From Gammaproteobacteria bacterium (GTDB lineage: Bacteria; Pseudomonadota; Gammaproteobacteria; JAADJB01), in assembly GCA_013151035.1 (NCBI GenBank), contig JAADJB010000041.1, forward strand, positions 3,253 to 67,252: a DNA stretch of 64,000 nucleotides, in the 5' to 3' direction. Position numbers and translations under genes: made by a program. Shown piece after piece: positions 11,872 through 63,418 of this stretch. Below the pieces are notes generated by a model, which saw only the letters and a list, made by a program, of their open reading frames with translations, was not told where the DNA came from and ran no database searches. Within the stretch, counting starts at the first letter, position 1; every line of letters begins with the position of its first letter.

Positions 11872-11883
11872 ACGCCTGATTTT

Positions 11884-20338: not shown

Positions 20339-20374
20339 AAAAGGGGGCAGACCTAAGGTCTGCCCCCTTTTTTT
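20339..20374. terminator. Bidirectional terminator, Family 2 palindrome
   Basis: GGGGGCAGACCT (20343-20354) and AGGTCTGCCCCC (20356-20367) form a perfect 12-bp stem, with A-rich sequence on the left and a T-run on the right. It serves the PuuD-like gene and the convergent GGDEF-EAL gene. The core is the Family 2 palindrome with one symmetrical base change. Confidence 0.92.
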
Positions 20375-28953: not shown

Positions 28954-31470
28954 ATGTCCAACCAGCCTTGCTATCATTGCGGGCTTCCCGTCCCGGCTGA
29001 ATCATCCATCCACGCAGACATTGATAATCATCGTCGTGCATTCTGTTGTATTGGATGCCAATCGGTCTGTGAGACCATCTATGCAGCAGGATTGCAAGGG
29101 TTTTATCAACGCACCCCGGATGGGCTATTATTAGCGCCTCCACCCAACCTGCCACAGGATCTCGAAGTCTTTGACCTGGATGAGGTGCAAGAGGAATACG
29201 CCTATCATCATTCCGATCAGGATCAGGGTGACATCCGTTCCATTCATTTACTGGTTGAAGGGATACACTGTGCTGCCTGTGTATGGTTGATAGAACGTAG
29301 CCTGCAATCCACACCCGGAATCATCAGGGCAGCAGTTAATCTCTCGGGGAAAAGGCTACACCTTGAGTGGGATAACCAGAGCATTCAGCTTTCCAGTGTA
29401 ATACAACAGCTGGGAGAAATTGGTTATAGTGCCATCCCCTTTGATCCCGAGATCGCCGATCACGCCATAAAAAAACAAAATCGCAGCTTATTATTTCGCA
29501 TGGCATTCGCTGGATTCACCATGATGAATCTGCTGTGGATATCTATTGCACTCTATTCCGGAGCTGATCGAGGAGAATTCCGTGAGATGTTTCACTGGAT
29601 AGGTTTTAGCTTGGCCACACCCACCCTGCTCTATTCCGGCTGGCCCTTTTTAAAGGCCGCCTGGCGTGGTCTGCAACAACTCCACCTGACGATGGATCTG
29701 CCCATTGCGATTGGTGCAACAACAACCTGGGCTTATTCCAGCTATATCACCTTTTCAGGATCAATCCAGGGCGATGTCTATTTTGACACCGTAGTCAATT
29801 TTATCTTTGTGATTCTGATCGGGCGTTATCTGGAAGCCATCTCAAAACGACAGGCGGTCTCTGCCACTCAACGCCTAATGGATCTGCAACCTCGCATAGC
29901 CACTCGCATTGAAAACAATGAAGAACACATCATCCCTGTCAGACGACTTGAAATTGAGGATACTATCTTAGTTAAGCCCGGTTACAAGATCCCGGCGGAT
30001 GGCATTATTATCAAAGGAAGCAGTCGTATTGATGAGTCAATGTTAAATGGAGAATCCAATCCGGTTACCCGTATACAAGGTGACACAGTATCTGCCGGCA
30101 CTGTCAATATACACAACCCCCTGTTTATACAAGTCACTGCCACTCTGAAAAACACGGCACTGGGACGCATCATACATCTGGTGGAAGAGGCACAGGCATC
30201 TAAGGCACCGATACAGTGCATGGCTGATCGTATCGTCCCCTGGTTTGTTGCTATCACCTTGAGCCTTGCTGCCCTGAGCTTTACCTTCTGGTTCTCACAG
30301 GGCATGGAACAGGCGTTAATGACGGCTACTGCCGTATTAATTATCACCTGCCCCTGCGCCTTTGGTCTGGCGACACCAATGTCCATTGCCGTTGCCTCCG
30401 GTCAAGGTGCACAACATGGCATCCTCATCAAGACCGGTGCCGTACTTGAAACCCTGTCCAATATCCAGCATTTTGTCTTTGACAAGACAGGCACTCTGAC
30501 GCAAGGCCGAATGAAAGTCACTAAAATACAACTGGTGAAAAACCATGATCGTCGACGACTATTAAGTCAAATCGCAGCTGTTGAACGTCACTCTGAACAT
30601 CCCATAGCCAAAGCGATTGTAGCCGCTGCTAATGATGAAGGTATCCCGTACCTTAATATCAAGGTCGACGATATCACTAATACACCCGGTTCAGGGATAC
30701 AAGCACAGCTTTACTCTGAATTGGGGATGGGGACAGACCTAAGGTCAGTCCCCAATGCAGCCCCCGGTTCCATCGTGGTCTCTATCGGTCATAGCCTGTG
30801 GCTACAACGACAAGGGGTCAGCCTTGATAATGAGCTTTTAGCCCATGCTGAAAAATGGGAAGGCAATGCCATATCACCGGTACATATCGCCATTAATAAA
30901 CAACACATAGCCGTGTTAGGTATTGCCGATCAATTAAGAGAGGATGCCCCCGCCCTGATTGCTTCGCTCCATCAAGCCAACATTAAAACCACTATGTTAA
31001 CGGGTGACAAACAAAGGGTTGCCGAGGCAATCGCCAGCGAAATAGGGAATATAACCGTTATTGCCGAGGTTTTACCCGAAGACAAGTACCGGATCATACA
31101 AACCTTGCAGCAACAGGATGGCAGTGTAGCAATGGTTGGTGATGGCATTAATGATGCCCCCGCATTGATGCAGGCTGATGTCGGAATCGCCATTGGTTCG
31201 GGGACGGATGTATCCATAGAAAATGCCGATATTGTACTTATCAATGATGAACTTGAAAAGATACACCTCGCCGCAAGACTATCACGTCGCACCATAAAAA
31301 CCATCCATCAAAACATTGGCATATCCATCATCTATAATATTATTATGGTTCCCTTGGCGATGGCAGGGTTCATCACACCCCTGATCGCAGCCATCAGTAT
31401 GCCCATTAGCTCACTACTGGTGATTGCCAATGCCGCCAGGATTCGCACTGTATTTAAAAAGGTCAAATAA
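28954..31470 (+). CDS. ccoI: Copper-exporting P1B-type ATPase for cbb3 assembly
   Basis: An 838-residue CcoI/FixI-type ATPase that moves Cu(I) outward for the oxidase. Order of features: N-terminal CYHCG and CCIGCQ cysteine pairs (metal-binding domain), HMA motif GIHCAACVW at about 102-110, eight helices, transport motif CPCAFGLATP at about 466, phosphorylation site DKTGTLT at about 510, TGDKQR at about 685 and GDGINDAP at about 729. Residues about 589-601 (ELGMGTDLRSVPN) are encoded by an inserted Family 2 palindrome in the nucleotide-binding domain. The frame stays open, so the protein should still be made. Confidence 0.95.
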   Translation: MSNQPCYHCGLPVPAESSIHADIDNHRRAFCCIGCQSVCETIYAAGLQGFYQRTPDGLLLAPPPNLPQDLEVFDLDEVQEEYAYHHSDQDQGDIRSIHLLVEGIHCAACVWLIERSLQSTPGIIRAAVNLSGKRLHLEWDNQSIQLSSVIQQLGEIGYSAIPFDPEIADHAIKKQNRSLLFRMAFAGFTMMNLLWISIALYSGADRGEFREMFHWIGFSLATPTLLYSGWPFLKAAWRGLQQLHLTMDLPIAIGATTTWAYSSYITFSGSIQGDVYFDTVVNFIFVILIGRYLEAISKRQAVSATQRLMDLQPRIATRIENNEEHIIPVRRLEIEDTILVKPGYKIPADGIIIKGSSRIDESMLNGESNPVTRIQGDTVSAGTVNIHNPLFIQVTATLKNTALGRIIHLVEEAQASKAPIQCMADRIVPWFVAITLSLAALSFTFWFSQGMEQALMTATAVLIITCPCAFGLATPMSIAVASGQGAQHGILIKTGAVLETLSNIQHFVFDKTGTLTQGRMKVTKIQLVKNHDRRRLLSQIAAVERHSEHPIAKAIVAAANDEGIPYLNIKVDDITNTPGSGIQAQLYSELGMGTDLRSVPNAAPGSIVVSIGHSLWLQRQGVSLDNELLAHAEKWEGNAISPVHIAINKQHIAVLGIADQLREDAPALIASLHQANIKTTMLTGDKQRVAEAIASEIGNITVIAEVLPEDKYRIIQTLQQQDGSVAMVGDGINDAPALMQADVGIAIGSGTDVSIENADIVLINDELEKIHLAARLSRRTIKTIHQNIGISIIYNIIMVPLAMAGFITPLIAAISMPISSLLVIANAARIRTVFKKVK
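30721..30755. repeat. Family 2 palindrome inside the ccoI coding sequence
   Basis: GGGGACAGACCT (30729-30740) and AGGTCAGTCCCC (30742-30753) form an inverted repeat with one A/A mismatch, with extra TTGGGG/CCCCAA at the edges. It matches the palindromes at 20343 and 31685. It is in frame with ccoI and adds about 12 residues. Confidence 0.9.
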
Positions 31471-31684: not shown

Positions 31685-31709
31685 GGGGACAGACTTGAAG
31701 TCTGTCCCC
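31685..31709. terminator. Family 2 palindrome between convergent genes
   Basis: GGGGACAGACTT and AAGTCTGTCCCC form a perfect 12-bp stem with a central G. It lies between ccoS and the convergent gene at 31720, where a bidirectional terminator is expected, although the flanking T-runs are short. Confidence 0.75.
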
Positions 31710-44360: not shown

Positions 44361-44393
44361 GGGGACACAGCAGATAAAGCCTGCTATGTCCCC
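44361..44393. repeat. Decayed Family 2 palindrome in the mtnA/mtaD gap
   Basis: GGGGACACAGCAG (44361-44373) and CTGCTATGTCCCC (44381-44393) form a hairpin with one mismatch. Nearby fragments TGGGGACAG (44297) and CGGGGACATAAC (about 44442) look like further remnants. Nothing else in 44253-44539 could be identified beyond AT-rich sequence before mtaD. Confidence 0.65.
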
Positions 44394-54632: not shown

Positions 54633-54663
54633 GGGGACAGAGCCCAAAACCGGCTCTGTCCCC
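54633..54663. terminator. Family 2 palindrome between the SafE-like gene and rluB
   Basis: GGGGACAGAGCC (54633-54644) and GGCTCTGTCCCC (54652-54663) form a perfect 12-bp stem with a 7-nt loop. It lies just after the 3' end of rluB and before the SafE-like gene start region. Termination of rluB is plausible although the T-run is missing. Confidence 0.65.
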
Positions 54664-55511: not shown

Positions 55512-55633
55512 CTCTATTTATTCCTACCATTCACAATTGTCGGGTTCCCTAAAGGATTTGGATTTCCAATCCGTCACGCTACGCTCAATTTTTCAAGAGC
55601 TCTGACCCCTTGATTTCATCCAGTTTACTACAA

Positions 55634-55747
55634 GAGTTATGAAGTGTTTATCTTTGTCAGAGACCGTCAGCCGCAGGGATGCGGCTGTCGAGCCTACATG
55701 GACGTATTCACGGCGTGTCTCTGAGAAAGATAAACACTTCATGACTC
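55634..55747 (+). repeat. Structured repeat Family 3, copy 1
   Basis: A 66-nt core (55658-55723) begins CAGAGACCGTCAGCCGC and ends TTCACGGCGTGTCTCTG. It contains the hairpin CAGCCGC/GCGGCTG with a 6-nt loop and is closed by CAGAGAC/GTCTCTG. It is enclosed by arms GAGTTATGAAGTGTTTATCT plus TT (55634-55655) and the inverse at 55726-55747, which pair over 22 nt with one mismatch. The copy lies 3' of scpB. Its core is shared with copies at 62443 and 63175; its arms are not. Confidence 0.93.
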
Positions 55748-55761
55748 AAACTCAAAACCGC

Positions 55762-62419: not shown

Positions 62420-62442
62420 ATTTTATCGCTCCGTTAACTCAA

Positions 62443-62556
62443 GAGACAGGGATTGCTCTTCTCGAACAGAGACCGTCAGCCGCATGGACGCGGCTGTCGA
62501 GCCACCATGGATGGTTTCACGGCGTGTCTCTGTTCGAGAAGAGCAACCCCTGTCTC
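62443..62556 (+). repeat. Structured repeat Family 3, copy 2
   Basis: The same 66-nt core (62467-62532) is enclosed by its own arms. GAGACAGGGATTGCTCTTCT plus CGAA (62443-62466) pairs with 62533-62556. With the closing CAGAGAC/GTCTCTG the stem is 31 nt long with one A/G difference. It lies between two partner genes read from the other strand (gluconate-dehydrogenase-like small subunit and GMC enzyme). Confidence 0.93.
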
Positions 62557-62585
62557 GAACCAACCAGGCATAATTACAGTTAAAA

Positions 62586-63152: not shown

Positions 63153-63174
63153 CCATTACCCCACTAAAATGGTA

Positions 63175-63292
63175 GAGGATGGCGGAGTGCCTATCTTTAG
63201 CAGAGACCGTCAGCCGCATGGACGCGGCCGTCGAGCCTACAGGAATATATTCACGGCGTGTCGATGATAAAGATAGGCACCCTGCCATCCTC
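63175..63292 (+). repeat. Structured repeat Family 3, copy 3
   Basis: The 66-nt core (63201-63266) has lost part of its closing stem (GTCGATG in place of GTCTCTG) but is still enclosed by arms of its own: GAGGATGGCGGAGTGCCTAT plus CTTTA (63175-63199) pairs with 63268-63292 over 25 nt with two differences. It lies in the divergent gap before yciB. The rest of that gap (63293-63418) shows only promoter-like AT-rich sequence. Confidence 0.92.
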
Positions 63293-63418
63293 AAATACAC
63301 TCCAAAGTATAAGCCAAAAGTATGCCTACAATCTCAAATCAGGTAAGATAGCCCCTTTAATAGACTAAACTAAGGACAATCACCCTGCCATACAGGGACT
63401 GATATAGATCAAAACTCA

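Follow-up and report, generated by a model that had tools for sequence, protein, structure and literature searches.

A probable in-frame insertion of a TIR-type palindrome at a turn of the copper ATPase CcoI, and related insertions in a gammaproteobacterial genome

The ccoI locus and the palindrome within it

The window analysed here (the whole stretch of 64,000 nt) carries ccoI and, inside this gene, a palindrome with several relatives elsewhere in the same stretch (Table 1). The domain matches of the encoded protein (E1-E2_ATPase, Hydrolase, HMA and ATPase-cat_bd, along with TIGR01525/TIGR01511) identify a P1B-type ATPase with a CcoI-type N-terminal metal-binding domain. A CcoG/CcoH-like pair is encoded upstream and a CcoS-like ORF downstream; the names of the ccoG/ccoH/ccoI/ccoS type are given here from gene order and sequence, in keeping with the known layout of cbb3 clusters.

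The core palindrome is self-complementary except for one A:A mismatch, and the expected number of matches of this type in shuffled window sequence is 0. After discounting the 6-nt tandem repeat on its left side (GGGGAT GGGGAC), the symmetric unit is ATTGGGGACAGACCTAAGGTCAGTCCCCAAT, and the extended palindrome, treated as single-strand DNA, folds at -11.6 kcal/mol (z -2.7). The palindrome leaves two of three reading frames open. As the preliminary description of this DNA had claimed, the palindrome lies in frame within ccoI and leaves the frame unbroken.

Table 1. Coordinates of ccoI, its extra segment and the palindromes discussed (window positions, or positions in other stretches of the genome)
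Feature	Position	Strand	Description
ccoI	28954..31470	+	copper/cation-translocating P-type ATPase, cbb3 oxidase cluster; single open frame, 838 aa
Extra codons (n=18)	30712..30765	+	YSELGMGTDLRSVPNAAP, residues 587-604; not present in any homologue; edges accurate to within a few codons
Core palindrome, 25 nt	30729..30753	.	GGGGACAGACCTAAGGTCAGTCCCC; TIR-type repeat, in the ccoI frame (M)GTDLRSVP
Extended palindrome	30720..30756	.	A/T extension (ATT...AAT); left arm with a tandem duplication of 6 nt, GGGGAT/GGGGAC
Intergenic copy, 25-nt palindrome family	20343..20367	.	
Intergenic copy	31685..31709	.	just past the ccoS-like ORF, 956 bp downstream of the ccoI copy
31-nt stem variant	54633..54663	.	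GGGGACAGAGCCCAAAACCGGCTCTGTCCCC; outside any ORF of at least 100 aa
Decayed member	44361..44393	.	longer stem variant
PurD in-frame palindrome	L105:3402-3426 (C50)		+7 residues
TilS in-frame sister-family doublet	L146:1501-1565 (C10)		encodes NQGVRALENMNIGSRLRIKSSDPLI
YeaD-TtcA frame	L096:1286-3148 (C4)	minus	621 aa
RoxA-DUF2238 frame	L163:892-2817 (C25)	minus	642 aa

An extra segment in CcoI and its structural position

CcoI was aligned with ten homologues taken from the class and from genome contigs (51-66% identity). All of them lack 18 residues at this site and have a 3-residue turn (DGK, DGQ, EGK and similar) there: relatives read VDGQKISLG, VEGKWVLAG and similar, and CcoI here reads LYSELGMGTDLRSVPNAAPGSIVVSIG. 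No segment similar to the 18 residues was found in any of the ten aligned homologues, and the solved CopA structures likewise are without it. The alignment of relatives thus confirms the extra segment that had been described, and palindrome-free homologues with the same segment were looked for among them and did not occur; its size, however, had been put too low (35 nt, about 12 residues), given that the alignments indicate 54 nt. The evidence for the insertion is this comparison with homologues at most 66% identical, from outside the genus and family.

The gain of 54 nt is a multiple of three and exceeds the 25-nt core. About half of the extra sequence (29 of the 54 nt) falls outside this core, comprising the duplication GGGGAT before GGGGAC, the A/T stretches that lengthen the stem, and flanks without a recognised source, and this portion speaks against an origin by transposition. 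We also considered that the insert might represent a longer element with the 31-nt subfamily flanks (TGGTACGTGCTYGA...), and rejected this because the ccoI flanks score no higher than shuffles.

The site lies between the GxG motif (G579, G581) and a strand ending in (I/V)G (G612), and the insert takes the place of a beta-hairpin turn within the nucleotide-binding domain. These glycines act in ATP binding in P1B ATPases. In an AlphaFold2 model built from seven sequences (mean pLDDT 51.7, poor outside the N/P domain and notably in the membrane part), the blocks of the nucleotide-binding domain mostly have pLDDT values of 74-88, and residues 590-604, flanked by strands 581-588 and 607-612, fall below 50. 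Modelling of the loop, which the preliminary description had proposed, therefore yields an inserted segment that looks like a floppy, unstructured loop placed on a turn.

The vicinity of the GxG motif of the ATP site, together with the intact reading frame and the presence of a second copy just behind the ccoS-like gene, could suggest that the insert is useful, either as a loop that tunes CcoI or as an mRNA hairpin that adjusts how ccoI and the ccoS-like gene are translated. We consider this very unlikely: the modelled segment is unstructured, and the repeats present in unrelated proteins give differing peptides, which argues against a selected peptide (see below). Even less credible is a chance resemblance in native protein sequence or an assembly error, notwithstanding that the draft genome is in 54 contigs and that the closest homologues compared are from outside the genus and family. 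Chance is opposed by the absence of matches expected in shuffles and of the segment in the ten homologues, and is excluded by the size of the palindrome family; the flanks of the insertion belong to one gene, so that a chimeric join is unlikely for ccoI, as it is for purD and tilS.

The palindrome family in the genome

The pattern GGGGRCAGACYTNARGTCWGYCCCC matches 27 places per strand with up to 3 mismatches in the 2.40 Mb genome, and the reversed pattern, used as a control, has 0 matches in the same genome, so the proposed membership of the ccoI palindrome in a repeat family (hereafter family 2) is well founded; about 30 related copies are present genome-wide. Of the relatives originally listed in the window, the 25-nt family truly includes the two at 20343 and 31685. 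The one at 54633 and, in decayed form, the one at 44361 represent instead a related variant with a longer stem (GGGGACAGAGCC...GGCTCTGTCCCC). A wide distribution of the palindrome was considered and rejected, given that it is found in 3 of the 369 genomes of the class and is numerous only here, with one copy in each of the other two.

The peptide G(T/A)DLRSVP, searched as degenerate codons, matches the genome only at palindrome copies, which, ccoI excepted, are outside recognisable genes. The search for GTDLRSVP in other proteins suggested in the preliminary description accordingly returned palindrome copies, with a recognisable gene for ccoI only, and a search of the available literature found no paper that names this peptide. 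Selection on the peptide was also entertained, as the ccoI copy departs from the consensus by a synonymous TCT -> TCA change and the copies at C14:10761 and C34:46798 keep G(T/A)DLRSVP with silent changes, but neither of the latter is in frame in a gene, and this possibility was dismissed.

The ccoI copy and the copy at 31685 have a common right flank, TGCAGCCC. Along with the 6-nt tandem duplication in the left arm and the 29 extra nt beyond the core, this same-side flank would fit an origin of the ccoI palindrome by replication slippage, template switching or gene conversion, for example, from the downstream copy. Yet the two copies differ at 4 of 25 positions in the core, an 8-mer in common carries little weight in a family of some 30 copies and may be due to chance, and the family is dispersed and tied to a transposase, so that we regard such an origin as rather unlikely.

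Two further features of these repeats were observed. The 31-33-nt variant often comes with a conserved outer flank (TGGTACGT[GT]CT...; at L201, L205, L208, L210, L211 and L103), which suggests a larger repeat unit, and in L005 (C23:94510-94600) and L064 (C40:27033-27118), family 2 palindromes are nested in the loops between the arms of doublets of a sister family. The window also contains three 121-nt elements (55631-55751, 62440-62560 and 63174-63294) that are 71-74% alike and whose terminal arms of 31-33 nt vary between copies while still being self-complementary; these look like another short mobile or structured repeat.

Transposases and the class of the element

The genome encodes three Y1 transposases, each bounded by its own repeat, and one fragment (PF01797). 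The gene on C14, with a PF01797 score over the cut-off, is bounded by inverted AAACCGGGGACAGACCACGGTTT ... AAACCGTGGTCTGTCCCCGGTTT with the repeat motif GGGGACAGACCACGGTTT, that on C21 by AAGGGGTCAGAGCTCTTGAAA, and that on C23 by GGTGCG...CGCACCCTACC; the fourth PF01797 match is a truncated piece at the end of contig C31, with no such palindrome in the adjoining 600 bases read. Against the RAYT family model NF047646 (cut-off 80 bits), the C23 protein scores 185, and the C14 and C21 proteins, at 70.7 and about 71 bits, respectively, remain below the cut-off. By these scores and PF01797, the C14 transposase belongs to the Y1/IS200-like superfamily and is distinct from a typical RAYT.

In a gapped search, the C14 ends were found joined without the gene (GGGGACAGACCACGGTTT...AAACCGTGGTCTGTCCCC) on C10 and C14, with a close variant on C22. 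These joined-end palindromes of 43-47 nt are scattered, and shorter forms, including the 25-nt one, were found as well. The whole C14 arm is matched in the 43-47-nt palindromes, whereas the 25-nt core matches the C14 ends over the outer 11 nt (GGGGACAGACC) only, which weighs against a link with C14.

Di Nocera et al. (PMC3733652) gave the name TIRYT to transposases that have terminal inverted repeats on either side, and the motif GGGGWSAS is common to some of these, though not to all. Most described TIRYTs fall in one subclass according to a later study (PMC6006769), their TIR repeats being probably its subclass 2.1. The motif fits both GGGGACAG of the ccoI family and GGGGTCAG of the sister family (AGGGGTCAGAGCTCTTGAAA), which has its own transposase. 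Given this fit and the repeats with the same motif that bound the C14 Y1 gene, we classify the ccoI repeat as TIR-type; a conserved GTAG or CGTC tag at the foot of the stem was not found in the listed palindrome copies. From these sequence comparisons, we infer that the ccoI palindrome may have been mobilised by the C14 transposase.

By the scenario that we favour with good confidence, a TIRYT-type palindrome inserted at the CcoI turn, kept the frame, added a loop and was tolerated. A non-autonomous element, formed when the two terminal inverted repeats of a Y1/HUH tyrosine transposase are joined to each other, would have inserted in ccoI at the beta-hairpin turn of the nucleotide-binding domain; given two open frames of three, a gain divisible by three and a site at a variable turn, the CcoI frame would be kept, a flexible 18-residue loop gained, and selection would be tolerant. 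The transposition is supported by similar in-frame insertions in PurD and TilS.

In-frame copies in other genes and apparent gene fusions

In PurD, where a relative reads GLPESDSEESKVFHAGT and the protein here GLPESGDRPPVCPPGDCKVFHAGT, the gain is seen in comparison with nine relatives (for one of which it is 6 residues) and with solved PurD structures. The TilS insert is located in the linker before the substrate-binding domain, making it approximately 8-10 residues longer than in most relatives. Two other frames run across repeats at gene junctions. On C4, YeaD (aldose-epimerase/mutarotase-like) continues through YGIEGLGTDFKSVSESKSVPRVV into a TtcA-like tRNA thiolase, the junction being a family 2 palindrome with a partial second copy; from the palindrome up to the conserved TtcA start, the frame contains none of the codons ATG, GTG and TTG, and TtcA is a separate frame in all three aligned relatives. 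On C25, a RoxA-like JmjC oxygenase is linked to a DUF2238 membrane protein by way of a AGGGGTCAGAGCTCTTGAAA-family doublet. Judged from the draft assembly, both are apparent gene fusions at repeats. In a separate observation, a sister-family doublet at L161:1501-1542 (C25:4110-4151) reads in frame into a CobS-like N-terminus, with a possible TTG start inside the palindrome.

In a census of the stretches around repeats, with site counts and calls of copies internal in a real gene made by eye from ORF lists and hence approximate, internal in-frame copies amount to 3 of 31 sites for family 2 and two doublets among 39 half-sites for the sister family, with no clear case among 164 sites of family 1; for family 2 alone against family 1, Fisher p is 0.004. 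Family 1 itself (GGTGCG...CGCACCCTACC) is REPIN-like, occurs in the window at 11878, 16080, 17895 and 17979 and at about 160 more sites in the genome, is hardly ever in genes, unlike the two TIR-type families, and likely has the C23 RAYT as its partner.

The encoded peptides differ by copy, with GTDLRSVP in ccoI, GDRPPVCPP in purD and LGTDFKSVS on C4 (read from the other strand), and QGVRALEN, IKGSELLK and IKSSDPL in the sister family, so that no single peptide is being spread. With peptides that differ, a position at a turn and low confidence in the model, tolerance is more likely than function, and we infer that the loop is neutral and brings no benefit; most likely, the insertion is a tolerated selfish element.

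Relation to known systems and implications

In-frame palindromic insertions are known from Rickettsia, as stated in a review (PMC10969869), and this part of the preliminary description stands. Its characterisation of such insertions as unusual here has to be qualified: GTAG/CGTC REPs in frame in several other bacteria, including in genes for RNA modification and repair, were catalogued in 2013 (PMC3733652), and the present genome holds four more in-frame cases. Like the RPEs of Rickettsia, the repeats studied here enter unrelated protein genes (ccoI, PurD, TilS) in frame and the extra peptide is tolerated; RPEs, as described in PMC10969869, are about 150 bp long, encode a conserved peptide and have nearly half of their copies in genes, whereas here the repeats are 25-65 nt and the peptides vary.

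The likeness to the GTAG/CGTC REPs of 'REP-decorated proteins' (Di Nocera et al. 2013, PMC3733652) consists in short palindromes in unrelated protein genes that add residues, but the repeats here are of TIR type and without the GTAG/CGTC tag, whereas the intragenic repeats in the tables of that work are GTAG and CGTC ones; the words 'fusion' and 'fused' do not occur in its main text. The TIRYT TIRs (TIRtrons; PMC3733652) share more with the repeats here, with GGGGWSAS, inverted repeats around a Y1 gene and dispersed TIR copies, some self-complementary, although the 25-nt palindrome retains just the outer 11 nt per end; in-gene copies of TIR-type repeats are not mentioned in the available portions of PMC3733652 and PMC6006769. 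With REPINs/RAYTs (PMC3116915), the common feature is the dispersal of palindromes by a resident tyrosine transposase, and family 1 with the C23 transposase fits this scheme; the ccoI repeat, however, is not of family 1, for which clear gene insertions are lacking in the census. The ccoI case is a known sort of accident, here involving a TIR-type element.

Beyond the Rickettsia elements and the GTAG/CGTC REPs, TIR-type hairpins of TIRYT transposases too can insert in frame in coding sequence, with tolerance where the site is a turn of the protein. The ccoI case alone is of moderate interest and gains more when set within the pattern seen across the genome, in which gene fusions may have a part, five in-frame cases in one genome allowing comparison. 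More out of the ordinary are the junction fusions, and we propose, tentatively and with more doubt than assent, that in this lineage outside Rickettsiales, palindromes of the two TIRYT families have served as in-frame linkers that fused genes (YeaD-TtcA, RoxA-DUF2238), in addition to adding loops in CcoI, PurD and TilS. If the junction cases are true single proteins, hairpins can fuse genes, providing a simple route to new multidomain proteins, and hairpin transposition would then be a recurrent source of gene fusion in a bacterium outside Rickettsiales.
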